DNA of 32,957 nt from positions 1 to 32,957 of the forward strand of contig JAFUUE010000020.1 in NCBI GenBank assembly GCA_017483945.1. Reading direction: 5' to 3'. The position numbers were made by a program, and so were the translations under genes. The notes beneath the pieces are model-generated. The model saw nothing but the letters and a program-made list of their open reading frames with translations, made no database searches and was not told where the DNA came from. This document shows, in pieces, positions 1 to 32,628 of this stretch (the first letter of the stretch is position 1; each line of letters starts with the position of its first letter). The DNA is from Paludibacteraceae bacterium (lineage in GTDB: Bacteria; Bacteroidota; Bacteroidia; Bacteroidales; Paludibacteraceae).

Positions 1-350
1 CCGGATACGATTCGGCGTAATGGAAGAACGGGGACGGAAAGGCACGGAAGGGCAGGGGAGGACGCGTATAGAGACGCGCTCGCGGGCGAGCCGCCCGCGT
101 CCCAGATTGGGCGAAGGCGGCTCAGAGAGCCGTGCCGGATACGATCCGGCGTAATGGAAGAAAGGGGACGGAAAGGCCCGGAATGGCACGGAAGGGCAGG
201 GGGAAGGACGCGTATAGAGACGCGCTCGCGGGCGAGCCGCCCGCGTCCCAGATTGGGCGAAGGCGGCTCAGAGAGCCGTGTCGGATACGATCCGGCGTAA
301 TGGAAGAAAGGGGAGAGGGAAAAGCGGCGGGGAAGGGGGATACAGGAAGG
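1..350. repeat. Tandem repeat of about 134-146 bp carrying the dispersed palindrome
   Basis: Two nearly complete units (1-134 and 135-280) and the start of a third (281 to about 320) follow one another. Each begins with a CGGATACGAT-type sequence, continues through purine-rich GGAAGGGCAGG-like sequence, and ends with the dispersed palindrome GCGGGCGAGCCGCCCGC followed by GATTGGGCGAAGGCGG. The second unit is 12 bp longer because the GGCACGG-like stretch is duplicated. The array may extend beyond the left edge of the window. Open frames across it are chance products of high G+C. I see no gene between 1 and 565. Confidence 0.85.
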
Positions 351-390
351 GGGATATCAAGAGAAAATATGCAGAAAAAGAGAGGAAGTG

Positions 391-421
391 TTGCGTATGT
401 GCATTTTTTTTTGTACTTTTA
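391..421 (+). promoter_or_regulatory. Bacteroidetes-type promoter for the acetyltransferase gene
   Basis: TTGCGTATG starts at 391 and TACTTTTA starts at 414, exactly 20 nt after the TTG, with a T-tract between. This fits the TTG-N20-TAnnTTTG pattern seen at other genes here, except that the last base is A rather than G. The transcript would start near 428, giving a leader of about 140 nt. Confidence 0.7.
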
Positions 422-455
422 CGGACGATTTGGCGCATCTGCGGGCAAGAGAACA

Positions 456-565
456 AAGCACCATCAAGCACCAACAAGCACCAAGAGGGTAAAGCGCCAA
501 GAGAACAAAACACCAAGAGAGCAAAGCGCAGAGAGAACGAACAGAGAGAGAACGAACAGGGAACA
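456..565 (+). repeat. Degenerate decamer repeats in the leader of the acetyltransferase gene
   Basis: AAGCACCATC, AAGCACCAAC and AAGCACCAAG follow one another at 456-485. Looser AAAGCGCCAAGAGAAC-like and AGAGAGAACGAAC units run up to the ATG at 566. The leader is almost free of T and purine-rich. Similar repeat-built leaders occur before other genes in this window. Confidence 0.7.
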
Positions 566-1120
566 ATGAAGACAGAGAAAGAGAAGATGCTGGCGGGGGA
601 GTTGTACAACGCCAACGATGAGGAACTGAAGGCTGAACTGAATGTCGTTAAGACGCTGTGTCAGCAGTATAACAATCTGCCTCCCACGGATTTGGAGGCG
701 CGGAGTGCACTGCTGCAGCGGTTGCTTGGTACGGCCGACGAGGACACGTTCGTCAACCAGCCGTTCTACTGCGACTACGGGCGGCATATCCACGTGGGCA
801 AGCGGTTCTTTGCCAATTTCCACCTGACAATCCTGGACGAGGCGTTTGTGCGTTTCGGGGACGACTGTTTCCTGGGCCCGAACGTGAGCATCTATACCGC
901 CTGCCACAGCACTGACCCGGTGCAGCGCAACACACGCGAGGAGTGGGCGAAGCCGGTGACGGTGGGTAACAACGTGTGGATAGGCGGCAGCGTGACTATC
1001 CTGGCCGGTGTGACCATCGGCGACAACTGCACCATCGGGGCCGGTGCGGTGGTCACGCACGACATCCCCGCCAATAGCGTCGCTGCGGGTGTGCCGGCGC
1101 GAGTGATAAAGAGACTATGA
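566..1120 (+). CDS. Maltose/galactoside O-acetyltransferase family protein
   Basis: This 184-residue protein has the length and layout of Maa/LacA-type sugar O-acetyltransferases, which transfer acetyl from acetyl-CoA to a sugar hydroxyl in the cytoplasm. The N-terminal 55 residues match the Mac helical domain (KMLAGELYNANDEEL). The rest is a left-handed beta-helix of hexapeptide repeats, clearest in NNVWIGGSVTILAGVTIGD and IGAGAVVTHDIPANSVAAG. The H of YTACHSTDP is the expected catalytic histidine. The frame is open much further upstream, but the true start is the ATG at 566 (MKTEKEKM): it begins the family homology and follows the promoter and repeat leader. The natural substrate cannot be read from the sequence. 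The ybaK-type gene follows after 39 nt and may be co-transcribed. Confidence 0.92.
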   Translation: MKTEKEKMLAGELYNANDEELKAELNVVKTLCQQYNNLPPTDLEARSALLQRLLGTADEDTFVNQPFYCDYGRHIHVGKRFFANFHLTILDEAFVRFGDDCFLGPNVSIYTACHSTDPVQRNTREEWAKPVTVGNNVWIGGSVTILAGVTIGDNCTIGAGAVVTHDIPANSVAAGVPARVIKRL

Positions 1121-1159
1121 CGGATGTCGGCGGGTTAACACGAATAGGTTGATACGGTT

Positions 1160-1639
1160 ATGGCGCAGAAGATACAGAAGACGAACGTGTGCCGGCTGCT
1201 GGATGCGGCGGGGATAACGTATGAGACGGTGGAGTATGCCGTGGATGAGTCGGACCTGAGCGCGACGCATGTGGCGGCGCAGTTGGGCGAGGACATTGAC
1301 ACGGTCTTCAAGACAATCGTGCTGGAGGGAGACAAGACGAAGCATTTCGTCTGTGTGGTGCCGGGGGCGTGCGAGGTGGACCTGAAGAAAGCGGCGCGGG
1401 CCAGCGGCAACAAGTCGTGTAAGCCCATCCCGCAGAAGGAGTTGCTGCCGCTCACCGGCTATATCCGCGGCGGCTGTTGCCCGATAGGTATGCGGAAACC
1501 GTTCCCGTCGTATATCGACGAGACCTGTCTGCTACATGAGCGTATCTATGTGTCTGCCGGTCAGCGCGGTATGCAGATTCGTCTGGCGCCGCAAGACCTG
1601 ATTGACTACGTGCCGCTGGAAGTGAGTGACTTGATATGA
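1160..1639 (+). CDS. ybaK: Cys-tRNA(Pro)/aminoacyl-tRNA deacylase, YbaK/EbsC family
   Basis: This 159-residue protein has full YbaK length. YbaK enzymes hydrolyse mischarged Cys-tRNA(Pro) in the cytoplasm as a trans-editing step. The N-terminus (TNVCRLLDAAGITYETVEY) matches the family start. The segment EDIDTVFKTIVLEGDK carries the conserved lysine of the active site, and GYIRGGCCPIGM matches the conserved glycine-rich loop. The context (an acetyltransferase upstream, a convergent unknown gene downstream) gives no further clue. YbaK and the related ProX-type editing domains are hard to separate without comparison, but the GCCPIG loop favours YbaK. Confidence 0.92.
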   Translation: MAQKIQKTNVCRLLDAAGITYETVEYAVDESDLSATHVAAQLGEDIDTVFKTIVLEGDKTKHFVCVVPGACEVDLKKAARASGNKSCKPIPQKELLPLTGYIRGGCCPIGMRKPFPSYIDETCLLHERIYVSAGQRGMQIRLAPQDLIDYVPLEVSDLI

Positions 1640-1690
1640 CCGGTGAGGGGATACTCTTATTTATTGTCCGGGGGATGGGCGGAGGTAGTG

Positions 1691-1723
1691 TCGACCGTCG
1701 GTCGACCGTCGGCCGACCGTCGG
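1691..1723. repeat. Three tandem 11-bp units (TCGACCGTCGG type)
   Basis: TCGACCGTCGG, TCGACCGTCGG and CCGACCGTCGG lie back to back. Neighbouring units form small inverted repeats (CGACC-GTC-GGTCG). The same three-unit array recurs at 19603-19635, upstream of the Clp ATPase gene. Confidence 0.9.
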
Positions 1724-3007: not shown

Positions 3008-3052
3008 GCGCCTTGTGGCGCAATCGCGGGCGAGCCGCCCGCGTCCCAGGTG
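3008..3052 (+). repeat. Dispersed palindromic element, short-loop form, complete copy
   Basis: Hairpin 1 is GCGCC-ttgt-GGCGC, then AAT, then hairpin 2 GCGGGCG-AGC-CGCCCGC, then GTCCCAGGTG. This is the most complete copy and is used here as the reference. It lies just past the 3' end of the FISUMP-like gene. Confidence 0.9.
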
Positions 3053-6635: not shown

Positions 6636-7538
6636 TCAAAAGATACCATAGCAGTGACATAGATCCGTATTCCGTTTGGCGGGGTCATAGGGGGCGATAC
6701 GGTAGGCGAGTTTGAGTCCGAGGTCGAAAGGGCAATAGTCCGTGACCAGTTGTTGTCCCGCGCGCCGGGCCGTTACGACGGTGGTCATGAGTCGTCGGAG
6801 CGGGAATCCGTCCCGCGTGTCGGAGAGCATGAGCAGGGAGGGGCGGTCCGAGGGGAGACAGACGGTGCGTGTGAGAGCATAGTCCGCGTAAAGCCCCACC
6901 GAGATATAAGAGCGAGAGCGGCGGGCGGTGTGGACAAGGATGTCATAACTCACTTCGGCGGACAGCCACCACCGGATGGTGCGCGACGGTTGTGTCCCGT
7001 CTTGCTGCTCTCGGAAGTGGCGGGATGCCGCGAGCGGGAAGGACTCCAGGACGCGGTTGTCCTGCAGGGGGTAATAGACGGACAGCTCTGCATCCTCGGC
7101 AGTCTCTTGCCAAGCGGAGCTGAGCGGCAGGACGGGCATCGGCCCCAAGTACAGGTTCAGGTGGCGCCACGAGACAGCCACCTGCAGCGGCAGGGCCACG
7201 GACCACACCGTATAATGCTCGTGCAGATAGCCGATGGTATAGTCCACCTGCATCGGGGCGTTCTCGACGTCGATGGTGGTATAGCTGTCGGTGTAGCCGA
7301 CCTTGGCGAACCCGGCCCGGTGGCGGTCTGCCGTGGCGCCGATACGGAAGCCGATGACATAAGGCGAGTGGTAGTTATAGGTCAGCAGGAGGCCGGCGTG
7401 CAAGTCCGGCACCGCCGTGACATAGGTGCACTGCGCATCATAGGCGGCAAGACCTGCCCGCAGGCCGGCCTCGAAGAGGTGCTCTGCGAAGGTCGGCAGG
7501 GTTGTCAACAATAGTATGACTAACAGGTGCTTCCTCAT
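6636..7538 (-). CDS. Putative outer-membrane beta-barrel protein, 300 aa
   Basis: This is an exported 300-residue protein that I cannot place in a named family. MRKHLLVILLLTTLPTFA is a signal peptide. The mature part alternates hydrophobic and polar residues with many aromatics (LHAGLLLTYNYHSPYVIGF, SVALPLQVAVSWRHLNLYLG, SYISVGLYADYALTR) and closes with GLKLAYRI, as expected for an outer-membrane barrel with about ten or more strands. Its ATG overlaps the stop codon of the 1014-residue adhesin gene (ATGA, 7535-7538), so the two are translationally coupled. An assembly or anchoring partner for the adhesin is possible, but this is inference from the coupling only. Confidence 0.7.
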   Translation of the reverse strand: MRKHLLVILLLTTLPTFAEHLFEAGLRAGLAAYDAQCTYVTAVPDLHAGLLLTYNYHSPYVIGFRIGATADRHRAGFAKVGYTDSYTTIDVENAPMQVDYTIGYLHEHYTVWSVALPLQVAVSWRHLNLYLGPMPVLPLSSAWQETAEDAELSVYYPLQDNRVLESFPLAASRHFREQQDGTQPSRTIRWWLSAEVSYDILVHTARRSRSYISVGLYADYALTRTVCLPSDRPSLLMLSDTRDGFPLRRLMTTVVTARRAGQQLVTDYCPFDLGLKLAYRIAPYDPAKRNTDLCHCYGIF

Positions 7539-10500
7539 GGTACCATTCGTTTTTCGGTTCGGACATGGGCGCCCTGCTCGTAGCGGAAGAGGTAGATGCC
7601 GTGTGCGATGCGGTCCTCAGGAACCCGTTCTCCCCGGCTGTTGTAAACCTGCAGCAGGAGGGGCTGCGGCTCCTCTTCTGCCTCCGCGTCCTCCAGGACG
7701 ATGATGTTGGACCATATAGGCAGATTGCCGTCCAGCGTGACGCGCAACTGGAAGCGGCCGTGCAACTCGTTCTGCTCGGCATAGTCGTCCCATGTGGCGC
7801 CGGGGACCGGTTGCTCGTTCTTATACCAGAGGAAAGCGGTGGGCGTACGGTCGGGGAAATAGCGGCGCAGGGCGACGTTGTCGCAGAGCAGTTGCCAGTT
7901 GTATTTGTTCACGATGATGGGCCATAGCCGTTCGCAATGGACGGTGTCCAGGGTGTAGATGTGGAGGATGCTGTCACATCCGCGGGGACTAAGCTCGACG
8001 GCCTGTTGTTCAGCGGGGTCGGAGAACAGCAGACCATGCCAGAGGAAAGGCATGAGCGTGTCGCAGACGACGGTGTCGTGTGTGGCATACCGCAGGTCGG
8101 GGCAGCATAGCTCAGTCGCGAGGGTCCAACGGGTCTGTAGGATGTCGCAGCCGCGGCTGTCCCGGTCGGTCGTGAGTTGTTCGCCGGGCTCGGTGAAGAG
8201 CATTCCCCGCCAAGTGAAGGGCATGAGTGTGTCGCAGACGACGGTGTCAACCGCGGCGTGGCGCAGGTCGGGACAGCATATGTCAGTGCGGAGTGTGTAT
8301 GTGGTGAGCAGGCTGTCGCAACCGCGCCGGTCGTGCAGGGTGCGGGTGAATGAGCCCGGCTCGGTGAAGAGTGTGTCGCGCCAAGTGAAGGGCATGAGCG
8401 TGTCGCAGACGACGGTGTCAACCGCGGCGTGGCGCAGGTCGGGGCAGCATAGCTCAGTGCGGAGTGTGTACGTGGTGAGCAGGCTGTCGCATCCGCGCTG
8501 ATTGTACAGGGTGCGGGTGAAAGAGCCCGGCTCGGTGAAGAGCGTGTCGCGCCAAGTGAAGGGCATGAGCGTGTCGCAGACGACGGTGTCAACCGCGGCG
8601 TAGTGCAGGTCGGGACAGCATAGTTCTGTGCGGAGTGTATACGTAGTGAGCAGGCTGTCGCATCCGCGCCGGTCGTGCAGGGTGAGGGTGAATGAGCCCG
8701 GCTCGGTGAAGAGCGTGTCGCGCCATGTGAAGGGCATGAGTGTGTCGCAGACGACGGTGTCAACCGCGGCGTAGCGCAGGTCGGGGCAGCATAGTTCTGT
8801 GCGGAGTGTGTACGTGGTGAGCAGGCTGTCACATCCGCGCCGGTCGTGCAGGGTGCGGGTGAATGAGCCCGGCTCGGTGAAGAGTGTGTCGCGCCATGTG
8901 AAGGGCATGAGTGTGTCGCAGACGACGGTGTCGATGGTGAGCACCCGCGCCTCGGGGCAGCACAGCTCTGTGCGGAGTGTATATACGGTGAGCAGGCTGT
9001 CGCATCCGCGCCGGTCGTAGTAGAGTCGGCTGAACGAGCCCGGTTCGGTGAAGAGCGTGTCGCACCAAGTGACGGGCATAAGGGTGTCGCAGACGACGGT
9101 GTCGATAGTGAGTACCTGCACGTCGGGGCAAGGAGTGCAGTCGCGGACAACCAGGTGGAAAGGCTCGCTCATCGCGCGGCAGTAGCGTTCTGTGCGCACA
9201 TCTACGCCATTGGATGTCACGCACAGCCGGTACCACCCCTCCGCCGCCAGAGGAATAGAGTCGTAGGAGAGGATGCGCTCTTCGGCAACATCGGTCCAGT
9301 CGTCACTATTGAACGGCAGGCTGTCCTGCGCATATTGCCAGAGGTAGTTGTACGGCTGCTGAAAACTGCCGTCTGTGGTCACCTCGCCGGTAAACGTATA
9401 GGCGGAGTCCATGCATATCTCGTGCTCCCCCTCCACCGTCACTACCGGTTGGCACAGGCGTATCTCTATATCGTCCATGGCGAAGTCATTGCCCATGCCC
9501 GTGTTCACATCGTTGAAGATGGAGAGGCGTATCATGCTGACTCCCGGGGGCACATGGAACGATGCACCGACCAGATGCCATGGGGCGGACTGCACTGTCG
9601 GGTAGCCATTGGTCAGATAGTCCTCCGGAGCCGGGGCTATCTCGCCGGACGACTGCTCCAGAATGGTGTCCCCCGTGGCTTCGTTCTGTATCAGGAAGCG
9701 CACCTTGGGCTTGGCAAACGCATGCCCCGGCTCCAACACGTTCGCTACATAGGCGGAGAAAGAGAGGTCTAACTCGTGGCAGACGGGGAACGTGGTGGTG
9801 TAGAAAGCGTCGTTACCGCCGATACCGTCCACCTCCAGCAGGTATCCGCGCGTGTAGTCGTTGGGGTAGGTGTGGTCGTCCTGAATGAACCACTGGGAGA
9901 ACATGTTGTCCGTTGTGCTTGTGTTAAGACCGTTCTGCCACCCCTGCTTGGCTACGATGAATCTGCCGCTTGACGGTCCTGTACGTAGGACATCGTTGTG
10001 CTGGTAGTACCGGCTGCTCATGGTGGTGAGGCGCGTCGAACGCGTGAGCGGGTCCGACGGGCTGTTGCCTCCGAAATCCTCGCGGAAGAGCAGGGTGCCG
10101 CGGGGGCATACTTCGTCGGAGACCTCGTCCGGCCATGGATGGGCAAAAGGTGTGCAGCCGCCGTCCACTCGGGACAGATAGACCGGCTCACTCGTCACGT
10201 AGAGCGTCGGGTTACCGATATTCTCTACGCGCGTCATAGACACACGGTACCAGCCTTCCCACAGGTTCGTGGGACGCTGGGTATAGTGAATGCCGGATGT
10301 CGCAAACGTGCGCCACGTTGTGCCGTCCGACGAATACTCATACAGGAAACGCCGGGAGTTGCCGTACGTGCCGTCATCCGTGTAGCGGGGGATGAACGAG
10401 AGGAACGGATTGGAGATACAGATTGCCTCTGCCGACGTCTCCAGACGCACCGACGCCGCTTCGACCGATTGACCCCGCACCGGACATGCAATCATGCACA

Positions 10501-10579
10501 ATACTCCGAGGAGAAAAGCTCCGCCTGCCCGGCGTGCCCGATTGATGTATTCTCCTATAATATTGCCTGCAATTTGCAT
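7535..10579 (-). CDS. Large repeat-containing secreted adhesin-like protein, 1014 aa
   Basis: MQIAGNIIGEYINRARRAGG precedes a hydrophobic stretch (FLLGVLCMIACPVRG): a signal peptide with a long n-region. Residues of about 40-480 form an Ig-like and jelly-roll-like region (LLFREDFGGNSPSD, MDDIEIRLCQPVV). Residues of about 484-880 are seven 57-residue repeats with the pattern DTVVCDTLMPFTWRDTLF, then GCDSLLTTYTLRTELCCPD. Each is encoded by an exact 171-bp period, and the last two have diverged. After an Ig-like segment (LWYKNEQPVPGATW), the C-terminus (LLLQVYNSRGERVPEDR, GIYLFRYEQG) resembles a type IX secretion C-terminal domain. The DTxVCDxLxPFxW...GCDS repeat is common in Bacteroidetes adhesins. 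A dedicated promoter lies at 10632-10662, and a TPR/HTH regulator gene diverges from it. Confidence 0.88.
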   Translation of the reverse strand: MQIAGNIIGEYINRARRAGGAFLLGVLCMIACPVRGQSVEAASVRLETSAEAICISNPFLSFIPRYTDDGTYGNSRRFLYEYSSDGTTWRTFATSGIHYTQRPTNLWEGWYRVSMTRVENIGNPTLYVTSEPVYLSRVDGGCTPFAHPWPDEVSDEVCPRGTLLFREDFGGNSPSDPLTRSTRLTTMSSRYYQHNDVLRTGPSSGRFIVAKQGWQNGLNTSTTDNMFSQWFIQDDHTYPNDYTRGYLLEVDGIGGNDAFYTTTFPVCHELDLSFSAYVANVLEPGHAFAKPKVRFLIQNEATGDTILEQSSGEIAPAPEDYLTNGYPTVQSAPWHLVGASFHVPPGVSMIRLSIFNDVNTGMGNDFAMDDIEIRLCQPVVTVEGEHEICMDSAYTFTGEVTTDGSFQQPYNYLWQYAQDSLPFNSDDWTDVAEERILSYDSIPLAAEGWYRLCVTSNGVDVRTERYCRAMSEPFHLVVRDCTPCPDVQVLTIDTVVCDTLMPVTWCDTLFTEPGSFSRLYYDRRGCDSLLTVYTLRTELCCPEARVLTIDTVVCDTLMPFTWRDTLFTEPGSFTRTLHDRRGCDSLLTTYTLRTELCCPDLRYAAVDTVVCDTLMPFTWRDTLFTEPGSFTLTLHDRRGCDSLLTTYTLRTELCCPDLHYAAVDTVVCDTLMPFTWRDTLFTEPGSFTRTLYNQRGCDSLLTTYTLRTELCCPDLRHAAVDTVVCDTLMPFTWRDTLFTEPGSFTRTLHDRRGCDSLLTTYTLRTDICCPDLRHAAVDTVVCDTLMPFTWRGMLFTEPGEQLTTDRDSRGCDILQTRWTLATELCCPDLRYATHDTVVCDTLMPFLWHGLLFSDPAEQQAVELSPRGCDSILHIYTLDTVHCERLWPIIVNKYNWQLLCDNVALRRYFPDRTPTAFLWYKNEQPVPGATWDDYAEQNELHGRFQLRVTLDGNLPIWSNIIVLEDAEAEEEPQPLLLQVYNSRGERVPEDRIAHGIYLFRYEQGAHVRTEKRMVP
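7937..9130 (-). repeat. Seven tandem 171-bp repeats within the adhesin gene
   Basis: The marker CAGACGACGGTGTC recurs at 8064, 8235, 8406, 8577, 8748, 8919 and 9090, exactly every 171 bp. The inner units are nearly identical in DNA, so they expanded recently or are kept alike by recombination; the two units nearest the C-terminus have diverged. Confidence 0.95.
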
Positions 10580-12306: not shown

Positions 12307-12345
12307 CACCTGGGACGCGGGCTATCCGTCTCGGTCACAGACCGC
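12307..12345 (-). repeat. Dispersed palindromic element, long-loop form
   Basis: Read on the minus strand: GCGGTCTGTGACCGAGACG, then GATAGCCCGC, then GTCCCAGGTG. The left half (hairpin 1 and GCGGGC) is missing. It ends 12 nt before the start codon at 12358, so it forms the leader of the winged-helix gene. Confidence 0.88.
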
Positions 12346-12357: not shown

Positions 12358-13068
12358 ATGCGTCATGCGCCGTACGGCCTCCGGGGTACGACCCTGGAGG
12401 TGTACGCGGCGTTGTACGACCTGACCCGGAAGGAGGAGAAGGTGTATAGTCGTGCGTGGTTGTGCGAGTGGTTGGAGATGCCGACTTCGAGTGTCTCAAA
12501 AGCCCTCCGCGACCTCGAAAAACGAGGGCTGCTGTCCGTCTCCGAAGATAGTCGCGGCGTATATGCTCTACAGGCTCTTGAACTGCTAAAAATTAGCAAA
12601 AGTTCTGCTAAAAATGAGCAGAGTTCTGCTAAAAATGAGCAGAGTTCTGCTAAAAACGAGCAGAGTTCTGCTAAAAATGAGCAAACACACCTTATATATG
12701 GTGATACTAACGTATCACTAATAAGAAAGCAGATAAAGAATACAGGAGAGAGGGCAACGCGAGATGCGTCGCCAAGAGAGGCGGAAAAAATTCCGCCCTC
12801 GCGCGCCGAGGAAGAGGATTTAAGATTTAAGATTCAAGATTCGGCTCCTCTGCCCCTCCAGGTCACTCGCGGGCGAGCCGCCCGCGTCCCAGGTGAGGCG
12901 AATGGTGTCCGGCATAAACTTCGGTCATTATATGGTCTAAGATTATTGAACAGTACGGCGGCTCCCGCAAAGTTGGATTGTAGAAGACGAAAAACAACAC
13001 CGAACTCTTGCATATGTCCGTTTTTTTTACTACTTTTGTACCGCAAAACTAACAACCACAGCAGATGA
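12358..13068 (+). CDS. Winged-helix protein resembling mobile-element replication initiators; 3' end uncertain
   Basis: Residues 1-75 form a winged helix ([40 protein letters not shown]) like the N-terminal domain of phage/plasmid replication initiators in Bacteroidetes and Firmicutes. Those proteins also carry a short repeated linker after this domain. Here residues 82-109 are four SSAKNEQ repeats, encoded by 21-bp DNA repeats that are each a hairpin. After about residue 125 the reading frame runs through heptad repeats, a copy of the dispersed palindrome (about residues 171-179), and the promoter of the next gene, stopping at 13068. The second half is therefore probably decayed or read-through sequence rather than a functional domain. 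In-frame codons upstream encode IYGW, typical for the family, but no ATG is there, so the N-terminus may have been rebuilt by the element at 12307. Confidence 0.6.
12601..12684 (+). repeat. Four 21-bp iteron-like hairpin repeats in the winged-helix gene
   Basis: The unit starts at 12601, 12622, 12643 and 12664. Each holds the inverted repeat TCTGCT-aaaaatg-AGCAGA. A degenerate fifth unit (TGCTAA-aaa-TTAGCA) lies just before at 12583-12597. A 21-bp period puts all units on one face of the helix, as in replication iterons. Confidence 0.9.
12817..12844 (+). repeat. Four heptads (GATTTAA/GATTCAA)
   Basis: GATTTAA, GATTTAA, GATTCAA and GATTCGG are contiguous. They belong to the 7-bp repeat class scattered through this window, in the 3' half of the winged-helix open frame. 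Confidence 0.85.
12867..12895 (+). repeat. Dispersed palindromic element, short-loop form
   Basis: TCGCGGGCGAGCCGCCCGC followed by GTCCCAGGTG. It is read in the frame [11 protein letters not shown] within the 3' half of the winged-helix open frame. Hairpin 1 is absent. Confidence 0.9.
13008..13038 (+). promoter_or_regulatory. Promoter of the DUF2130 gene
   Basis: TTGCATATGTC starts at 13008 and TACTTTTG at 13031, with a 20-nt spacing and a T-tract. The ATG at 13065 follows after a short leader. Confidence 0.82.
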
Positions 13069-14358: not shown

Positions 14359-14919
14359 ATGAATCAACCGACTATCCTTATTGCAGAGGAAGGTGAGCGG
14401 TCGCTCATCGAGAAATACCTGCGTCTGACAGACTGCCCGGTCATCGTGACCGGCGTGGGAGCACTCAACATCATCCGCGCACTGCGCGATATACCACGCG
14501 ACACACCGTTGCTCAATATAGGCTACTGCGGCAGCAGTAACTTCGCGATAGGAGCCGCGGTCGTGGTCAGCGAGGCACGGCTCAACCACCCCAATGTGAC
14601 GTATCCCGAACCGGTGCTTCCGCTCCGCCCGTGCCCCGAGGAGTGGCTGCGGAGTGCGGTCTGTGAAGGCGCGTCTGATGCCGCAATCGCGGGCGCGGTC
14701 TGTGACCGAGACGATAAGCCCGCGTCCCGGGCGGTGCTGCAGGCGGTGTGCTATTCCAATACGGATTTTGTCCTGCAGTCGGACTACCGCGACTGCGTGT
14801 TCGACATGGAACTTGCCTATATAGCGGCACTGGGCTTCACGCACCTGAGCGCGCTCAAGATAGTGTCGGACAACCTGTCGCTGCATGCGTATCATGAGCA
14901 TACGCACGGGGTGGAGTAG
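14359..14919 (+). CDS. Nucleoside phosphorylase/MTAN-like protein with a palindrome-encoded insertion
   Basis: This 186-residue protein is of the PNP/UDP phosphorylase superfamily, most like short MTA/SAH nucleosidase-type proteins. Supporting motifs are PVIVTGVGALNIIRAL, LLNIGYCGSS (phosphate/ribose loop region), CVFDMELAYIAALG (the ribose-binding DME) and LKIVSDNLSLHAYHE (the VSD catalytic region). It would cleave or phosphorolyse purine nucleosides; the substrate is unclear. Residues 109-124 (AIAGAVCDRDDKPASR) are encoded exactly by a long-loop copy of the dispersed palindrome at 14683-14731, within a surface-loop region between strands. The frame is kept. Whether the protein remains active cannot be told. 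A 55-nt spacer follows the DUF2130 gene, so co-transcription is likely. Confidence 0.8.
   Translation: MNQPTILIAEEGERSLIEKYLRLTDCPVIVTGVGALNIIRALRDIPRDTPLLNIGYCGSSNFAIGAAVVVSEARLNHPNVTYPEPVLPLRPCPEEWLRSAVCEGASDAAIAGAVCDRDDKPASRAVLQAVCYSNTDFVLQSDYRDCVFDMELAYIAALGFTHLSALKIVSDNLSLHAYHEHTHGVE
14683..14731 (+). repeat. Dispersed palindromic element, long-loop form, inside the nucleosidase gene
   Basis: GCAATCGCGGGC, then GCGGTCTGTGACCGAGACG, then ATAAGCCCGC and GTCCCGGG. Read in frame as AIAGAVCDRDDKPASR. A short partial match (GCGGTCTGTGA) lies just upstream at about 14656. Confidence 0.92.
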
Positions 14920-14963: not shown

Positions 14964-15025
14964 TGCCTTGAAGCGCAATCGCGGGCGCGGTCTGTGACCG
15001 AGACGTAAAGCCCGCGTCCCAGGTG
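14964..15025 (+). repeat. Dispersed palindromic element, long-loop form, complete copy
   Basis: TGCCTTGAAGCGCA (degenerate hairpin 1), ATCGCGGGC, GCGGTCTGTGACCGAGACG, TAAAGCCCGC, GTCCCAGGTG. It lies between the convergent nucleosidase and lptE-like genes, where it could act as a two-way terminator. Confidence 0.92.
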
Positions 15026-15040: not shown

Positions 15041-15553
15041 TTACCAGCGGGCGACGGTGTCGTTGTAGATATTCTCCGCTATTTCGGTAATCATGGTGGC
15101 GCAGAGTTCTTCCTGCACATCGGTCAGCATGCGTGAGGAGTCGAACGTCTGGTAGGCCGTATAGGTCTTCTCAAAACTCTCTTCGGGGGCGATATTGTTC
15201 GTGAAGCGGACACGCACCGTGATGGTCAACTTGGTCTCGGCCGAGTAACTGTCGGCAGCGATGGCCATCGGGGTCAGCGTGTAGCCGGTGATTTCGCCTT
15301 CCAGCTCGAGGTGGCCTCCCTTGCGCAGTATCTGGAGACGGGTCTGGCGCTGGTAGATGTCGCGGATGCCTTCGCTCAGGTTATTGCTGAGCGGAGGATA
15401 AACGAGCGGCGCATTGTTGGGAAAGTCGGCGATGCTGATACTTTGTATCTTGGCATAGTCGATGCTGGCTCCGTTGAACTTGTAACTGATGCTGCAGGCC
15501 GCGAGCAGCATGGCCAGGGCAGTGAGCAGCAGGCGGACGCGGGGCGGTGTCAT
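15041..15553 (-). CDS. LptE-family lipoprotein
   Basis: This is a 170-residue lipoprotein. MTPPRVRLLLTALAMLLAAC is a signal with a lipobox at LLAAC. The mature start (SISYKFNGASIDYAKIQSIS) and the body (IADFPNNAPLVYPPLSNNLS, IRDIYQRQTRLQILRKGGHL, LELEGEITGYTLTPMAIA) match the Bacteroidetes LptE family. LptE helps LptD insert lipopolysaccharide into the outer membrane. The C-terminal helices (TDVQEELCATMITEIAENIY) also fit. The start overlaps the stop codon of the sigma-54 activator (ATGA, 15550-15553), the order usual for this pair in Bacteroidetes. The usual next genes (a TPR gene and secG) are absent here; a palindromic element and a convergent gene follow instead. Confidence 0.85.
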   Translation of the reverse strand: MTPPRVRLLLTALAMLLAACSISYKFNGASIDYAKIQSISIADFPNNAPLVYPPLSNNLSEGIRDIYQRQTRLQILRKGGHLELEGEITGYTLTPMAIAADSYSAETKLTITVRVRFTNNIAPEESFEKTYTAYQTFDSSRMLTDVQEELCATMITEIAENIYNDTVARW

Positions 15554-16806
15554 AGGCCGTATTCTTTGATTTTGCGATAGAGCGTGCGCTCGGACAGCTG
15601 CAGCTCCTGTGCCGTCGCTTTGCGGTTGCCATGGTTGCGGAGCAGCGCCTGCCGGATAGCGTCCCGCTCGACCTGGGAGAGAGTCTCGGGTTGCTCGGGT
15701 TGCGCCGGTTGTGCAGGAGCGTCCGTCACCACTTCCGCCAGTTGGAACTCCTCCTCCGGCTCGAGGTTGTGCTGCGGCTCGTTATGCACGTCCGGCGCGG
15801 GAGCGGTATGTAAAACCGCGGACGGTGCCACCTGGGACGCGGGCGGCTCGCCCGCGAGTGCGCCGCCAAGGCGCAGGGGGGCAGAGGCTATCTGCTGCTT
15901 GAGTTCGTCCACCTCGCGCTTGAGTTCGAAGAGCATCTTGAGGAGCATCTCCCGCTCGGCCTCGTAGGCGGAAGAGTTGCCGTGGTCCGAGGTCAGTGTG
16001 AGCGCGTTCTGCGCCTCGTTGCGGGGCAGGTATTTCTGCAGGACGTCCGCCTGTATCTCCCGGAGCGGCTCGAGGATGCTTATCTGCTCGGCTACGTGCT
16101 TGAGTTGGCGCACGTTACCGTTCCAATAGTAGTTACGCAGCAGTTGAGTCGCCTCGTCCGTCAGACGGATGGGGGGGATGCGGTAGCGCTCGGAGAAATC
16201 CACGGCGAACTTACGGAAGAGCAGCGGGATATCCTCACGCCGTTCGCGCAGGGCAGGCACGCGTATCTCGACCGAGTTGAGGCGGTAGTAGAGGTCTTCG
16301 CGGAAGCGGCCCCGGCTGATGGCGCGTTGCATGTCGATGTTGGTGGCGGCCACGACGCGGACATTGGTCTTGAGCACCTTACTGCTACCCATGCGTATGT
16401 ACTCTCCCGTCTCGAGCACGCGCAGGAGGCGCGCCTGAGTGGCCAGCGGCAGTTCGCCGACTTCGTCCAGGAAGAGCGTACCTCCGTCGGCTATCTCGAA
16501 ATAGCCCTTGCGCTCGGCCCGTGCGTCGGTGAAGGCTCCCTTCTCGTGCCCGAAGAGCTCGCTGTCGATAGTGCCCTCGGGGATAGCGCCGCAGTTGACG
16601 GCGAAATAGGGGCCGTGCTTGCGTGCGGAGAAGTTATGTATAATCTGGGGGAAGTGCTCTTTTCCCACTCCCGATTCACCGGTGATGAGTACGCTCAGGT
16701 CGGTTTTGGCGACCTGTACGGCGATTTCTATATCATGGTTGAGCAACGGGCTGACGCCGATAATGCCGAAGCGTTGTTTGATGGATTGTATCTCTTGCGG
16801 AGTCAT
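15550..16806 (-). CDS. Sigma-54-dependent transcriptional activator (AAA+ and Fis HTH) with altered GAFTGA loop
   Basis: This 418-residue protein lacks a receiver domain; the start at 16806 (MTPQEIQSIKQRFGIIG) begins the family homology. The AAA+ domain runs from about residue 15 to 255: Walker A GESGVGKE (43-50), Walker B region GGTLFLDEVGELPL, sensor RVVAATN, and REDLYYRLNSVEIRVPALR. The sigma-54-contacting loop reads GAFTDA (90-95) instead of GAFTGA. Residues of about 311-326 ([16 protein letters not shown]) are encoded by a copy of the dispersed palindrome in the linker. The C-terminus (ERDAIRQALLRNHGNRKATA, LQLSERTLYRKIKEYGL) is a Fis-type HTH. It would act with RpoN, but the signal input is not visible. 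It is translationally coupled to the LptE-like gene. Confidence 0.9.
   Translation of the reverse strand: MTPQEIQSIKQRFGIIGVSPLLNHDIEIAVQVAKTDLSVLITGESGVGKEHFPQIIHNFSARKHGPYFAVNCGAIPEGTIDSELFGHEKGAFTDARAERKGYFEIADGGTLFLDEVGELPLATQARLLRVLETGEYIRMGSSKVLKTNVRVVAATNIDMQRAISRGRFREDLYYRLNSVEIRVPALRERREDIPLLFRKFAVDFSERYRIPPIRLTDEATQLLRNYYWNGNVRQLKHVAEQISILEPLREIQADVLQKYLPRNEAQNALTLTSDHGNSSAYEAEREMLLKMLFELKREVDELKQQIASAPLRLGGALAGEPPASQVAPSAVLHTAPAPDVHNEPQHNLEPEEEFQLAEVVTDAPAQPAQPEQPETLSQVERDAIRQALLRNHGNRKATAQELQLSERTLYRKIKEYGL
15829..15874 (-). repeat. Dispersed palindromic element, short-loop form, inside the sigma-54 activator gene
   Basis: On the minus strand: GCGCC-ttggc-GGCGC (hairpin 1), ACTC, GCGGGCG-AGC-CGCCCGC, GTCCCAGGTG. 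It is read as [15 protein letters not shown] in the linker between the AAA+ and HTH domains. Confidence 0.93.
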
Positions 16807-16875
16807 AAGCTTTGGGTAGTGTTTTGCTACGTGTAATGGGCTAATCTCCCTCTCTGCTGTGTGTGCGAGGGGGGG

Positions 16876-16907
16876 CATCCGGCCGGGAGCATGGTCCCGG
16901 CCGGATG
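16876..16907 (-). terminator. Perfect 13-bp hairpin after the thioredoxin gene
   Basis: CATCCGGCCGGGA, 6-nt loop, TCCCGGCCGGATG. It lies 20 nt past the trxA stop codon and before the sigma-54 activator gene. There is no T-tract, but the stem is very strong. It probably ends or attenuates trxA transcription. Confidence 0.6.
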
Positions 16908-17238: not shown

Positions 17239-17250
17239 AAGGATATTGTT

Positions 17251-17310
17251 TATAGGGTTTGAAATTGTTTGAAATAGTTTAAAATGGTTTAAAGTTGTTT
17301 GAAATGGTTT
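17251..17310 (-). repeat. Six A-rich decamer repeats in the trxA leader
   Basis: On the minus strand, read towards trxA: AAACCATTTC, AAACAACTTT, AAACCATTTT, AAACTATTTC, AAACAATTTC, AAACCCTATA, all in an exact 10-bp register. The first unit overlaps the stop codon of the clp gene (17309-17311). Confidence 0.9.
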
Positions 17311-19552
17311 AGGGCTGTTTTTGTTTTTCGTGGAGGACGAGCCGTTTGCGTTCGGGGTGGTTGAGCATGAGGTCGGTGATGCGGTCCTCCAGGGTGTTCT
17401 GCACGGCCCGGCGGAGGGGACGTGCGCCGTACTGCTTGTCCACGCTGTCCACCATGCGTCGGCGGAGCGGCGCGTCCACGGTGAGTGTATAGCCTTGCTC
17501 ACGGAGCCGTTTCTTGAGGCGGTCTATCTCGATGTCGAGTATGCGTTGGAGCGACTCGGGCGAGAGCGGGCCAAAGGTGATGACGTTGTCGATGCGGTTG
17601 ATGAACTCGGGCGGGAACGTCTTGTTGAGCGCCTTGGTGAGCATGGCGTGGGTCGTCTTGCTGTCCGGTTCGGTCGCCGCAAAGCCGATGCCGGCGCCGA
17701 ACTCCTTGAGCTGGCGCGTGCCGACATTGCTGGTGAGGATGATGATGGTGTTGCGGAAATCCACGGAGTGGCCTTGGCGGTCGGTGAGTCGTCCTTCGTC
17801 GAGCACCTGCAGGAGGACGTTGAAGATGTCCGGATGTGCTTTCTCTATCTCGTCAAAGAGGACGATGCTGTAGGGCTTGCGGCGCACGGCTTCCGTGAGT
17901 TTGCCTCCTTCCTCGTGTGCTACGTATCCCGGAGGCGCTCCGACGAGCAGGGAGGCGGTGTGCTTCTCTGCATACTCGGACATGTCGAATCGGATGAGGG
18001 CGTCGCGTGAGCCGAACATCTCCTCGGCGAGGCATTGTGCGAGGTGGGTCTTGCCGACTCCTGTCGGTCCGAGGAAGAAGAAGGTGCCGATGGGGCGTCT
18101 GGGGTCGCGCAGTCCGAGTCGTGAGCGTTGGATAGCCCGTACAACGGTGCGTACAGCCTCGTCCTGGCCGATGACCTGTCGGAGGAGTTCGTCGGCCATG
18201 GTGCGCAGCCGTTCGCTCTCGGCGCGTTGTACGCGTTGTACGGGCACGCCGCTCATCATGCTGACCACCGAGGCGATGTCGTCGGGTGTGATGAGTCGTC
18301 CGCGGCAGCGCGCGCCGGCCTCGTCCATGACGTCTATTGCCTTGTCGGGGAAGGCGCGGTCGGTGAGGTAGCGCTCGGCCAGGTCCACGCATGCCTGCAG
18401 TGTCTCGTCGGGATACTGCACATGGTGGAAGTCGGCGTAGTGCGCGGCGAGCCGCTCGAGTATGGCGAGTGTCTGTGTGCGGTCGGTAGGCACGACGGGC
18501 ACTTTCTGGAAGCGTCGTTCGAGGGCGCCGTCTTTCTCGATGGACTTGGCATACTCGCCGGTGGTGGTGGCGCCGATGCAGCGCACCTCGCCGCGCGCGA
18601 GGGCGGGCTTGAGGATGTTAGCCGCATCGAGTGAGCCTTGGGCATTGCCGGCTCCGATGATGGTGTGTATCTCGTCGATGAAGAGGATAATCTCGGGATG
18701 GTCGGTCAGCTCCTGAATCAGAGAACGCATGCGTTCCTCGAACTGCCCGCGGTAGGTGGTGCCGGCGACCATGGCCGCGATGTCGAGCGTGAAGATGCGC
18801 TTGCCCTGCAGCTCGGGTGCTTCGCCGCTTTGGATACGCAGGGCGAGTCCCTCGACGATGGCGGACTTGCCGACTCCGGGGTCGCCGATGAGTATGGGGT
18901 TGTTCTTCTTGCGTCGTGCGAGGATCTGGATGACGCGCGTTATCTCGACATCCCGTCCGACGACGGGGTCGAGCCGTTTCTCCTCGGCCATGCGCGTGAG
19001 GTCATGGCCGTACTTGTCGAGTGCGGGTGTGTCGGACTTGCTCTTCTCGAGGGGCTTCTTGCGCTCTTTCTTGGGTTGTGCGTCGGGCGTGTCGCTGTCG
19101 AGGTTGGAGCCGTTGCGCGGTGTGTTCTGCGTCTGCTGTTTGGGGAAGAGGCGAAGCATGGAGTCGTAGGTGATGTTCCATTGTTGTTCGAGGTAGGCTG
19201 CGGCGTGGTTGACCCGTTCGCGCAGGAGTGCCATGAGCAGGTGTGCCGAGCCGATGGTGTCGGTCTGGTACTCGCGTGCCTCGCTCTCGGCGATGCGCAG
19301 TATGCGCTCGACGCGGTAGCTGTAGGAGATAGCCTGTACGAGTTCGGGTTCGGGCTGTGCGAGGTCGTCGTCGAGTTGGCGTTTGGCCTCTTCGGGTCGC
19401 AGCCCGGCCCGGAGGAGTAGGTCGTAGGCCGTACCTTCCTCGAGGCGGATAATGGCGAGCAGCAGGTGCTCGGGCAGTATCTCGGTGTTAAAGAGGCGCT
19501 CCGCTTCGTTGCGGGCGTAGAGTAGGATTTTGTTGAATCGTATTGTTTGCAC
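17309..19552 (-). CDS. Clp ATPase (ClpA/ClpC type) lacking the middle coiled-coil domain
   Basis: This 747-residue AAA+ unfoldase has an N-terminal double Clp_N domain (about 1-145; [20 protein letters not shown]), a charged linker ([17 protein letters not shown]), AAA+ domain 1 with Walker A GDPGVGKS near residue 221, and AAA+ domain 2 with Walker A GPTGVGKT near residue 494. Domain 1 ends [20 protein letters not shown], followed at once by [10 protein letters not shown]. The roughly 60-residue M/UVR coiled coil usual in ClpC is therefore missing, giving a ClpA-like layout. The GIGF segment before the last part of domain 2 matches the ClpP-docking IGF/IGL loop, so it should feed ClpP. The start is a GTG at 19552. 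Four A-rich decamers end 3 nt upstream. Confidence 0.9.
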
Positions 19553-19555
19553 TAT

Positions 19556-19595
19556 GACGTTGTTTAAAGTGGTTTGACGTTGTTTAAAGTGGTTC
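19556..19595 (-). repeat. Four A-rich decamer repeats before the Clp ATPase start
   Basis: On the minus strand: GAACCACTTT, AAACAACGTC, AAACCACTTT, AAACAACGTC, then ATA and the GTG start. They have the same orientation and 10-bp register as the trxA, DUF4250 and sufS leaders. Confidence 0.9.
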
Positions 19596-19602
19596 CCTTG
19601 CT

Positions 19603-19635
19603 TCGACCGTCGGTCGACCGTCGGCTGACCGTCGG
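19603..19635. repeat. Three tandem 11-bp units (TCGACCGTCGG type), second copy of the array
   Basis: TCGACCGTCGG, TCGACCGTCGG and CTGACCGTCGG. This is the same three-unit array as at 1691-1723, here in the gap between the porin and Clp ATPase genes. Confidence 0.9.
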
Positions 19636-19663
19636 CTCCGCTCCGTGTTTGGTCCGTCTTTTC

Positions 19664-29888: not shown

Positions 29889-29889
29889 T

Positions 29890-29920: not shown

Positions 29921-29960
29921 CATTGATTTTGATGTTATAAAAGAGAAACCTTTGCATCCC

Positions 29961-30070
29961 TAACCATCTTAAACAACTTCAAACCATTTTAAACAACTTC
30001 AAACCATTTTAAACAACTTCAAACCATTTTAAACCATTTTAAACAACTTCAAACAACTTCAAACCACTTC
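29961..30070 (+). repeat. Eleven A-rich decamer repeats directly before the DUF4250 start codon
   Basis: Eleven units in perfect 10-bp register, mostly alternating AAACAACTTC and AAACCATTTT, with variants TAACCATCTT (first) and AAACCACTTC (last). The array ends 2 nt before the ATG at 30073. It is the largest member of the leader-repeat family seen also before sufS, trxA and the Clp ATPase gene. Confidence 0.95.
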
Positions 30071-30072
30071 CG

Positions 30073-30261
30073 ATGGACCGATTACCCCAAACCCCTGCCA
30101 TACTGGTCTCCGCGGTGAATATGTTGCTCCGCGACGGCGAGTTCGACTCGCTGGAGGCACTCTGTTACAACTTCGACACTACCGCCGACGAACTACAAAC
30201 CTACCTCCTCCGCAACGGCTACCGCTTCGACGAGGACCAGCAGCAGTTCAAAGCATGGTGA
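30073..30261 (+). CDS. DUF4250 domain-containing protein, 62 aa
   Basis: This small cytoplasmic protein matches DUF4250 over its whole length: LPQTPAILVSAVNMLLRD, then FDSLEALCYNFDTTADEL, then LRNGYRFDEDQQQF. The pattern 'P-ILLS-VN-LRD ... LC ... GY-YD---NQF' is the family signature; its function is not known. The start at 30073 follows the decamer array. The next gene begins inside this one (7-nt overlap, 30255-30261), and the third overlaps the second, so the three are one translationally coupled operon ending in a tyrosine phosphatase. Confidence 0.85.
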   Translation: MDRLPQTPAILVSAVNMLLRDGEFDSLEALCYNFDTTADELQTYLLRNGYRFDEDQQQFKAW

Positions 30262-30970: not shown

Positions 30971-30972
30971 CG

Positions 30973-30989
30973 GCGCCTCTTGGCGCTTT
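30973..30989 (+). terminator. Short hairpin after the phosphatase gene
   Basis: GCGCC-tctt-GGCGC followed by TTT. It is only a 5-bp stem, but it lies 3 nt past the stop codon and just before the sufS promoter. It resembles hairpin 1 of the dispersed palindrome. Confidence 0.45.
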
Positions 30990-30993
30990 CCTC

Positions 30994-31024
30994 TTGCGTA
31001 TCTCGTAAAAATGTTGTACCTTTG
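30994..31024 (+). promoter_or_regulatory. Promoter of sufS
   Basis: TTGCGTATCTC starts at 30994 and TACCTTTG at 31017, with a 20-nt spacing. The leader of about 120 nt contains a reverse-oriented heptad pair (31045-31059) and five decamer units (31094-31143). Confidence 0.82.
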
Positions 31025-31044
31025 CAGTCAGTACCATACTCGGC

Positions 31045-31059
31045 TTTCGACTTTTGACT
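31045..31059 (-). repeat. AGTCAAA/AGTCGAA heptads in the sufS leader
   Basis: On the minus strand TAGTCAAAAGTCGAAAG is one pair of the 7-bp family seen at 10934, 12235 and 14928, here in reverse orientation. Confidence 0.7.
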
Positions 31060-31093
31060 ATAGCGCAGCGACTTTTTAGTGTCTTTCCGTCTC

Positions 31094-31143
31094 AAACAAT
31101 CTTAAACAATTTTGAACCATCTCAAACCATCTTGAAGTAAGTC
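31094..31143 (+). repeat. Five A-rich decamer repeats before sufS
   Basis: AAACAATCTT, AAACAATTTT, GAACCATCTC, AAACCATCTT and GAAGTAAGTC in exact 10-bp register, ending 6 nt before the ATG. Same family and orientation as the arrays before trxA, the Clp ATPase and DUF4250. Confidence 0.9.
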
Positions 31144-31149
31144 CTCTAT

Positions 31150-32406
31150 ATGAACCGAACAGATTTCCCTATATTGACCGAGACGGTGCACGGGCGCCCG
31201 CTCGTGTACTTGGATAATGCCGCGACGAGCCAGAAGCCGCAAGCCGTCCTCGACGCCATGACCGAGGCTTATGCGCACTGGAACAGCAATATACACCGGG
31301 GTGTGCACCACCTCAGCCAACTGGCTACGCAGCACCATGAGGAGGCCCGGCGGGCCGTGGCCGACTTCATCGGCGCCGGCTCGCCCGACGAGATAATCTT
31401 CACCCGTGGCACGACCGACAGTCTCAACGCCTTGGCGTTCTGCTTCGGCGAGGCCTATGTCCGCGAGGGGGACGAGATACTCGTCTCCGCCATGGAGCAC
31501 CACTCCAACATCGTCCCGTGGCAGATGCTGTGCGAACGCAAGGGGGCGGTGCTGCGGCCTATCCCCTTGCGCGCCGACCTGACGCTCGACATGGAGGCTT
31601 TCCGTGACATGCTCAACGAGCGTACACGGCTCGTCAGCATCGCACAGGTGAGCAACGTGCTCGGCATCGTCAACCCGGTGGAGGAGGTCATCCGCCTTGC
31701 GCACGAACGCGACATCCCCGTATGCATAGACGGTGCCCAGTCTGTGCCGCATATGCCGGTCAATGTCAGTCGTTTAGACTGCGACTTTCTGGCCTTCTCC
31801 GGACATAAGATGTACGCCCCGACGGGTATCGGTGTGCTCTACGGCAAACGCCGTTGGCTGGAGGCGATGCCGCCTTATCAGGGGGGCGGGGAGATGGTGG
31901 ACCATGTCCGCTGGTCGGGCACAACCTACAACGTCCTCCCCTATAAGTTCGAGGCGGGGACGCCGGACTTCGTCGGCTCCTATGGCCTGCACTGCGCTAT
32001 CCGTTATATACAGTCGCTCGGGTGGGACACGGTCACTGCCCACGAGCACGACCTGACCGCCTACTGCGAGCAGCGACTCACTGCTGTCCCGGGGCTGCAT
32101 GTCTATGCCGCCGGGCAGCCCAAGGAGGGCGTCATCAGCTTCAACCTCTTCGCCCCTGCCTGGGGCGCGGGCTTATCGTCTCGGTCACAGACCGCGGCTG
32201 CGCGACTGATACACCCCTTTGATGTCGGCACGCTCCTGGACCGGCAGGGCGTCGCCGTCCGCACGGGACACCACTGCGCCCAGCCCCTCATCGACCACCT
32301 TGGCGTCCCCGGCACCGTGCGCGTCTCTTTCGGGCTCTATAACGACCGCGCCGACGTGGACGCCCTGCTCGCCGCCCTCGACCGCGCCCGCCTCATGCTG
32401 ACTTGA
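31150..32406 (+). CDS. sufS: Cysteine desulfurase, SufS type, with a palindrome-encoded insertion
   Basis: This 418-residue PLP enzyme takes sulfur from cysteine for Fe-S cluster assembly. The N-terminus (GRPLVYLDNAATSQKPQAVL) and HWNSNIHRGVHHLSQLAT are typical. The PLP lysine is K220 (FSGHKMYAPTGIG), and the persulfide Cys is C376 (VRTGHHCAQPLIDHLG). Residues of about 336-350 (AWGAGLSSRSQTAAA) are encoded by a long-loop copy of the dispersed palindrome and replace the usual short turn before HPFDVGTLLDRQGVAVRT. The Lys-Cys spacing is 156 residues against about 138 in E. coli SufS, consistent with an insertion. The insertion lies shortly before the active-site loop, so an effect on activity or on SufE docking is possible. 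No sufBCD genes are in the window. Confidence 0.93.
   Translation: MNRTDFPILTETVHGRPLVYLDNAATSQKPQAVLDAMTEAYAHWNSNIHRGVHHLSQLATQHHEEARRAVADFIGAGSPDEIIFTRGTTDSLNALAFCFGEAYVREGDEILVSAMEHHSNIVPWQMLCERKGAVLRPIPLRADLTLDMEAFRDMLNERTRLVSIAQVSNVLGIVNPVEEVIRLAHERDIPVCIDGAQSVPHMPVNVSRLDCDFLAFSGHKMYAPTGIGVLYGKRRWLEAMPPYQGGGEMVDHVRWSGTTYNVLPYKFEAGTPDFVGSYGLHCAIRYIQSLGWDTVTAHEHDLTAYCEQRLTAVPGLHVYAAGQPKEGVISFNLFAPAWGAGLSSRSQTAAARLIHPFDVGTLLDRQGVAVRTGHHCAQPLIDHLGVPGTVRVSFGLYNDRADVDALLAALDRARLMLT
32159..32195 (-). repeat. Dispersed palindromic element, long-loop form, inside sufS
   Basis: On the minus strand: GCGGTCTGTGACCGAGACG, ATAAGCCCGC, GCCCCAGG. In the sense frame it encodes WGAGLSSRSQTA. The GTCCC end has drifted to GCCCC. 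Confidence 0.92.
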
Positions 32407-32446
32407 CACGTCCGGGACCGTTACCTGACCGTTACCTGAGGCGTTC

Positions 32447-32505
32447 GGGACGCGGGCTTATCATCTCGGTCACAGACCGCGCCCGCAGATTGCGCCATAA
32501 GGCGC
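32447..32505 (-). repeat. Dispersed palindromic element, long-loop form, with hairpin 1
   Basis: On the minus strand: GCGCC-ttat-GGCGC, AATCTGC, GGGCGCGGTCTGTGACCGAG, ATGATAAGCCCGC, GTCCC. It shows that the long-loop form also carries hairpin 1. Confidence 0.92.
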
Positions 32506-32526
32506 GCCACCACAGGGCATGACTGT

Positions 32527-32560
32527 CACCTGGGACGCGGGCGGCTCGCCCGCGGTCGGG
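32527..32560 (-). repeat. Dispersed palindromic element, short-loop form
   Basis: On the minus strand: CGACCGCGGGCGAGCC, GCCCGC, GTCCCAGGTG. It lies 22 nt from, and inverted relative to, the next copy at 32583. Confidence 0.92.
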
Positions 32561-32582
32561 ACGTAAGACCCGGTTTATTTCT

Positions 32583-32628
32583 GCGCCCTTCGGTCGCATC
32601 CGCGGGCGAGCCGCCCGCGTCCCAGGTG
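32583..32628 (+). repeat. Dispersed palindromic element, short-loop form, with degenerate hairpin 1
   Basis: GCGCCCTTCGGTCGCA, TCC, GCGGGCG-AGC-CGCCCGC, GTCCCAGGTG. Confidence 0.92.

Follow-up and report, generated by a model that had tools for sequence, protein, structure and literature searches.

A dispersed palindromic repeat of a Paludibacteraceae genome is very probably a REP/REPIN family spread by a chromosomal RAYT, relatives of which lie in frame within restriction, methylation and defence genes

The HUH nuclease of TnpAREP, the REP-associated tyrosine transposase (RAYT), cuts and rejoins the single-stranded hairpins of repetitive extragenic palindromic (REP) sequences, and REPs canonically carry the tetranucleotide GT[AG]G on the 5' side of the hairpin. 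Here we compare described systems with a GC-rich palindrome dispersed through a 32,957-nt contig of a Paludibacteraceae gut bacterium (GenBank assembly GCA_017483945.1, JAFUUE010000020.1), which we call the window and which is contig C28 of the host genome (G000; 93 contigs totaling 1.99 Mb, with 89% completeness). In PMC6006769, GT[AG]G is said to be absent in classes 2.6 and 3, and REPs are placed in frame within the tnpAREP genes of subclass 2.4, which is abundant in Cyanobacteria and Bacteroidetes; a few unexpectedly long TnpAREP proteins were discarded as gene fusions or annotation errors, and why tnpAREP genes are kept is stated as a puzzle. PMC3733652 classes the Rickettsia repeats RPE-4 and RPE-6 as CGTC REPs, records CGTC repeats in Bacteroidetes, and describes intragenic REPs in several species, where whole REPs form part of the open frame of, among others, repair and tRNA-modification genes. 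According to the same paper, GTAG and CGTC REPs are mostly intergenic, and CGTC REPs apparently have no dedicated transposase. In-frame REPs have thus far been described as exceptions, and the maintenance of RAYTs is an open question.

Our analysis indicates that the window repeat is a new member of the REP/REPIN-RAYT systems (REPtrons; REPINs are inverted REP pairs), with a noncanonical foot and, in many copies, a second, covarying hairpin. The family was probably spread by one chromosomal RAYT, and some RAYTs of the same clade are nested in host genes. Like the REPtrons, the family combines many GC-rich palindromes, inverted pairs, a single REP-flanked HUH-Tyr transposase, and a patchy distribution; unlike them, it has the foot CCTGGGA rather than GT[AG]G, an additional hairpin 1 of variable sequence that many copies carry, and a long-loop subform.

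The perfect core GCGGGCG-n3-CGCCCGC is found 139 times in the host genome and 0 times for the reversed control, and a 16-base tail, allowing up to 2 mismatches, 111 + 87 times compared with 3 for the control, numbers that chance does not explain. The first-pass annotation of the window had listed 12 dispersed copies, and every one of its coordinates reads as a copy. Seven are of the short form, GCGGGCG-AGC-CGCCCGC-GTCCC: those at 81 and 227 (plus strand), which with hairpin 1 span 64-108 and 210-254 and are the two copies of a tandem duplicate; the full unit with hairpin 1 at 3008-3052 (plus); 12867-12895 (plus); the minus-strand copy at 15829-15876, also with hairpin 1; and those at 32527 (minus strand) and 32583, which form a REPIN at 32527-32628 with tails outward. 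The other five are of the long-loop form, in which GCGGTCTGTGACCGAGAC lies within a GCGGGC...GCCCGC stem: 12307-12345 (minus), 14683-14733 (plus), the copy at 14964 (plus; extragenic, 14965-15025), the copy at 32159 (minus; 32157-32203), and 32447-32505 (minus; extragenic, with hairpin 1).

For a larger sample we surveyed 529,817 bases, comprising the window and 58 stretches; these were picked around listed copies, so the counts are not genome-wide. The survey held 166 copies, of which 107 are short and 59 long. In 67 of the 105 short copies whose upstream sequence sufficed, the core is directly preceded on its 5' side by a hairpin with a stem of 5 bp or more, compared with a mean of 1.5 and a maximum of 6 in mononucleotide shuffles, which preserve base composition only. 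The hairpin 1 that the first-pass annotation drew into the full form is therefore real, but it is missing from the remaining 38. It exists in 49 distinct versions with compensatory stems (TGCGCC/GGCGCA, TGCGTC/GACGCA, CGCGTC/GACGCG, TCGCCG/CGGCGA, and TGACCG/CGGTCA, among others), so that pairing is conserved while sequence varies. The 107 short copies include 12 outward inverted pairs (spacing, 69 to 86 nt), one of which is the window pair, and 0 inward pairs. By inspection, the foot is CCTGGGA (or CTGGGAG).

The candidate motor is the single Y1_Tnp match in the host genome, on contig C9 (468-1280, minus strand), outside the window. Three inverted pairs of the window REP accompany this gene: the first lies downstream, the second within its 5' frame, and the third farther upstream. 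Its N-terminal frame runs through REPs (AGEPPASQ). Its motifs are NHVH and YIDHNP. The closest RAYT in the genus, from genome G107, matches it at an E value of 4e-77 with 59% identity, whereas the next best genus match is at 1.5e-9; some match to the host RAYT was found in 14 of 178 genus genomes, and the type at E<1e-70 only in these two. The G107 RAYT scores 91.3 bits against the NCBIfam REP-associated tyrosine transposase model (cutoff, 80), and the G107 frame is identical to that in Paludibacteraceae bacterium RUI460. A profile of both proteins aligns with the solved TnpArep 4er8 over the HUH and Tyr motifs. The resemblance to TnpAREP subclass 2.4 as described in PMC6006769 extends to presence in Bacteroidetes, the NH[IFV]H motif, YIxNNP (YIDNNP in G107), and in-frame REPs in the gene, whereas the host's own YIDHNP differs; the comparison covers described features only.

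REPs and RAYTs co-occur. Copies of the window REP occur in 2 of 151 genus genomes (142 copies and 1 copy), and copies of the G107 REP occur in 3 of 178 (17, 1, and 1), with 11 of the 17 on the contig of the G107 RAYT; CGTC lies at the 3' foot of the former but is central in the latter. There are thus two RAYT genomes in the genus, each with a private high-copy REP family, so the motor is probably the RAYT. The window family has a dedicated transposase, which the CGTC REPs of PMC3733652 apparently lack. In the mechanism we propose, the HUH nuclease of the RAYT would cut and rejoin single-stranded REP hairpins, mobilizing a unit in which a GC-rich hairpin of constant sequence terminates in CGTCCCAGGTG and is often accompanied by another hairpin whose sequence varies. 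Gene-breaking insertions would presumably be lost, and the others could persist if intergenic or if in frame in loops, linkers, or protein ends.

The placement of copies was determined with a gene finder of our own construction, which is unbenchmarked and calls unbroken frames only. With 86.7% of bases called coding, 129 of the 166 copies fell outside predicted genes, 36 fell inside, and 1 lay at a gene edge. Twelve of the 36 lie in weak open reading frames (ORFs; score, ≤25). The remaining 24, in 15 genes scoring at least 117, are the well-supported part of the inside/outside count that the first-pass annotation had proposed. Their hosts are the RAYT itself; an HU/IHF-like protein (copies in the tail); a 389-aa gene (C-terminal end); MnmA; GluQRS; an LPG-synthase-TM protein; an RlmI-type methyltransferase (N-terminal); AroA (148 bits in three stretches, below the cutoff); a GH43 enzyme; a TtcA-like protein; a chromate transporter; PorW/SprE, with five copies; a nucleosidase (so named by the first-pass annotation); a sigma-54 activator; and SufS. 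These copies occur in both orientations and in unrelated genes. The peptide WDAGGSPA is read from 8 of 12 short copies and SRSQTA from 11 of 12 long ones, a frame preference with a P value of ~0.0009 (short) or 2e-7 (long) if frames are taken as equal, although copies in the same gene are not independent; the SRSQTA preference is to be read with the long core in mind, which has stops in at least one sense frame and is open in every antisense frame.

These data bear on two other explanations of the repeat. It could consist of structural RNA or terminator hairpins serving gene expression, its in-gene copies lying in dead genes or miscalled ORFs, as its mainly extragenic location, its strong hairpins, and the 12 weak ORFs might suggest; we consider this most improbable, given the 15 hosts with good coding scores and the strong family matches that SufS, MnmA, GluQRS, and PorW retain despite their copies. 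The first-pass annotation had likened the repeat to Rickettsia palindromic elements, and the second alternative is a separate class similar to them, with insertion into proteins as its function. The repeat and the Rickettsia elements share in-frame invasion of unrelated proteins, here in both orientations, and PMC3733652 supplies the Rickettsia precedent. By description, the window family nonetheless differs in belonging to another phylum, in its link to a RAYT, and in being mostly extragenic (129 of 166 copies, in sequence called 87% coding), and its open frames are no more frequent than composition gives. We therefore regard a separate class as very unlikely, and the likeness to Rickettsia elements as one of outcome in a repeat with REP/REPIN hallmarks and a cognate RAYT. 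Whole REPs in frame within a mostly intergenic family also match the intragenic GTAG and CGTC REPs of PMC3733652, and, with in-frame REPs already published there and in PMC6006769, the view that the element has no described counterpart is not supported.

The idea of a stop-free design was likewise rejected, since G+C composition accounts for the open frames. The short core is indeed open in all six frames, as first noted, but same-composition shuffles equal this in 37% of trials; the long form, said to be open in five frames, is so in 3 of the 5 window copies and has four and three open frames in the other two.

Four window copies had been read as in frame within genes, and three are upheld: the long-loop copies within sufS (31150-32406, plus strand) and the nucleosidase-like gene (14359-14919, plus strand), and the short copy within the sigma-54 activator gene (15550-16878, minus strand), where the REP occupies the linker that joins the AAA+ part to HTH_8. 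The fourth, at 12867-12895, sits in the unsupported C-terminal tail of a winged-helix ORF (12358-13068) that the gene finder did not call and whose Pfam helix-turn-helix match covers residues 11 to 65 only. That ORF also holds a 21-bp tandem repeat (12580-12704; in-frame SSAKNEQ). The orthologue alignments suggested by the first-pass annotation showed uninterrupted relatives: the SufS insert, in a variable loop before HPFDVG, is missing from all 28 other genus rows (some of which share a genome), and the nucleosidase insert is missing from 29 of 29 (27 genomes, with two rows repeating another). Both empty sites are at the protein level. Other repeat-like peptides occupy the same SufS loop in L107 (VNYQLTTINYPLST), L092 (SNHKSQITN), and L118 (SRQPSEVSRQPSE), and the loop is a possible hot spot at which repeat DNA turns into protein.

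The wider result, which merits follow-up, concerns RAYTs nested in other genes. RAYT relatives were fetched by RAYT alignment from GTDB genomes, and the best 80 of 362 related stretches were examined; a RAYT was scored as nested if the open frame containing it extended 150 codons or more beyond it in both directions. By this definition 25 of the 80 loci were nested, although several are closely related, which leaves fewer independent cases. Of the 25 hosts, 20 are restriction, methylation, or defence genes: Eco57I (2), MmeI type (4), DUF1156/HmaB type (9, including L226, assigned by sequence without a DUF1156 match), N6_N4 methylase (2), and SNF2-NOV_C, or HmaA type (3). The others are WYL regulators (4, in one clade) and PurH (1). 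In two of the 55 nonnested loci (L164 and L196), the RAYT is in frame at the C terminus of a HAD hydrolase. A phylum-wide and less biased sample of 395 genomes, in which the RAYT type was accepted at E values up to 1e-20, gave 65 positive genomes and 80 listed places. Seven of these have open frames of at least 1,000 aa, a criterion that favors long genes and thereby qualifies the defence-gene bias, and all seven are restriction, methylation, or defence genes: HmaB (3; 642, 1,166, and 1,436 bits in two or three stretches), type I restriction (2), type IIG (1), and a PglX-like methylase (1; 1,435 bits in two stretches). The remaining 73 have shorter frames, mostly of 112 to 330 aa. One of the seven, G220, is the same gene as L194 of the first set, and the frame of G476 reaches a contig end.

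The nested frames could in principle be assembly chimeras, or ordinary RAYT genes in a chance open frame, and the records are nearly all metagenome-assembled genomes (MAGs). We consider this highly implausible, since the cases come from unrelated assemblies and phyla, one of them on a 2.2-Mb contig (L194), and since the RAYT is flanked by separate parts of a single family in the PurH, HmaA, HmaB, Eco57I, MmeI, and PglX cases. In PurH the flanks align to residues 25 to 206 and 232 to 534 of 4ehi_A. Of seven nested proteins given to PADLOC, six were matched in two stretches each (HmaA at 1,645 and 1,635 bits, HmaB at 1,502 bits, and three type IIG enzymes) and one, a type III methylase, in four. 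The 1,290-aa frame of G107 is an Eco57I-type enzyme, in which the Eco57I domain gives two separate matches, of which the better follows the RAYT. In addition, the near-identical pair L184/L185 and the four WYL cases are from separate assemblies. Besides its RAYT, one Eco57I-type gene of G107 (L070, 7326-11195) contains several in-frame REPs and REP pairs (SASVPLA...RERDAHAP).

Inteins place a nuclease gene in frame within a host gene together with a self-splicing domain. The nested RAYTs share the in-frame nuclease gene but not the splicing domain, of which there was none among the Pfam matches of the scanned nested proteins (E values up to 0.001 or 0.01); the RAYT insert presumably remains in the protein, and the chimera would be translated from the host gene. 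HUH and Tyr motifs are kept in 25 of 25 nested RAYTs, compared with 54 and 53, respectively, of the 55 others. In the interval that runs from 25 codons ahead of the first matched RAYT codon to 5 codons past it, an ATG (the only start codon counted) is present in 4 of 25 nested cases versus 38 of 55 others (Fisher P = 1e-5). Literature searches, judged from titles and the starts of abstracts and mostly of nonsubscription sources, turned up no paper that we recognized as describing RAYTs nested in restriction or defence genes.

How the nested RAYTs arose was addressed with a quick tree of 80 rows with 33 open forks, from which L218 was omitted (broken frame); L189 was labeled nested though outside the 25, and L227, cut by a contig end, was labeled free. 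On this tree a minimum of 15 switches between nested and free and 18 changes of host type are needed; one clade (SH-aLRT, 90) includes MmeI, Eco57I, and WYL hosts, with the Eco57I and WYL hosts grouped at 97. HmaB is found in 11 of the 65 genomes of the G535 genus; its linker is occupied in 2 genomes, empty in 7, and unreadable in L306, L307, and L309. The occupied sites start with CTGGGAG and end with CTCCCAG, resembling the CCTGGGA foot of the window REP. The changes on the tree, the clade spanning three host types, and the seven empty same-genus loci all argue against the alternative that nested RAYTs are old fusions, inherited or transferred with the host gene rather than inserted repeatedly. 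Occupation of the same HmaB linker across several phyla speaks for such fusions, which we consider somewhat unlikely as the general explanation; inheritance and repeated insertion may both be at work. L175 and L181 are near-identical RAYTs from different MAGs, one in an MmeI-type gene and the other after a long REP-peptide array, a possible recent RAYT move.

Some RAYTs of the clade, with adjoining REPs, are thus in-frame internal domains of other genes, mostly of the restriction, methylation, and defence kinds. A stronger model, to which we give about even chances, is that the clade is a frame-invading gene: it would move with its REPs as a unit, without start or stop codons of its own, and be expressed from the host gene as a domain of the host protein, mainly in restriction, DNA-methylation, and Hma genes, where it would be protected from loss because the host gene is not easily lost or passes from one genome to another. 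If true, this would bear on the puzzle of tnpAREP retention posed in PMC6006769. If confirmed, a transposase would be seen to colonize genes without breaking them, REPtrons would be mobile as units, and restriction-modification or Hma genes would be their harbor. It would also be a warning for annotation, as unexpectedly long TnpAREP proteins were set aside as fusions or errors (PMC6006769).

Several points weigh against our account of the window repeat and its RAYT clade. Transposition was not observed, and the host RAYT scores 79.6 bits, 0.4 under the NCBIfam cutoff of 80. The canonical GT[AG]G foot 5' of the hairpin was absent from the inspected copies, so this is not a canonical GTAG REP, and outward pairs account for just 24 of the 107 short copies; 9 neighbor pairs are tandem and most copies are single. 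As the gene finder sees unbroken frames only, "in frame" is built into the count and gene-breaking copies would appear extragenic, so that the in-gene count is unable to show the insertion itself as in frame. The LPG_synthase_TM and GH43_C2 hosts have no clear extra length in the Pfam alignment, and 4 of the 5 PorW copies sit past the last position that the family model covers. A base-exact empty site was found neither among SufS orthologues, which are too distant (57 to 76% protein identity), nor among HmaB loci, where the linker itself differs. As to the nested RAYTs, 5 of the 25 hosts are not defence genes (the 4 WYL regulators and purH), the nested RAYT of G496 in the phylum-wide sample has no HUH-like motif in frame by regular-expression search, nested genes may be inherited whole, and the reliance on MAGs applies throughout. 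Against a plasmid collection, the nested RAYT of L188 gave two remote matches (28 to 33%), which are uninformative.

An Rfam scan of the window returned a single tRNA and nothing else, and the window contains other repeats. At least six 171-bp tandem units (57 aa each, TVVCDTLMPFTWRDTLF...) lie at 8012-9166 within the gene for a 1,014-aa protein (7535-10579, minus strand). Arrays of a 10-base unit (AAACCATTTT/AAACAACTTC) are present in both orientations, at 29942-30081 and 31085-31144 and, inverted, at 17240-17329 and 19545-19604, and an 11-base tandem unit (TCGACCGTCGG) recurs at two distant places, 1680-1735 and 19592-19647. A perfect 55-bp duplicate with a terminator-like hairpin occupies 32717-32771 and 32848-32902, its second copy overlapping the end of the tRNA gene at 32884-32957 (minus strand).

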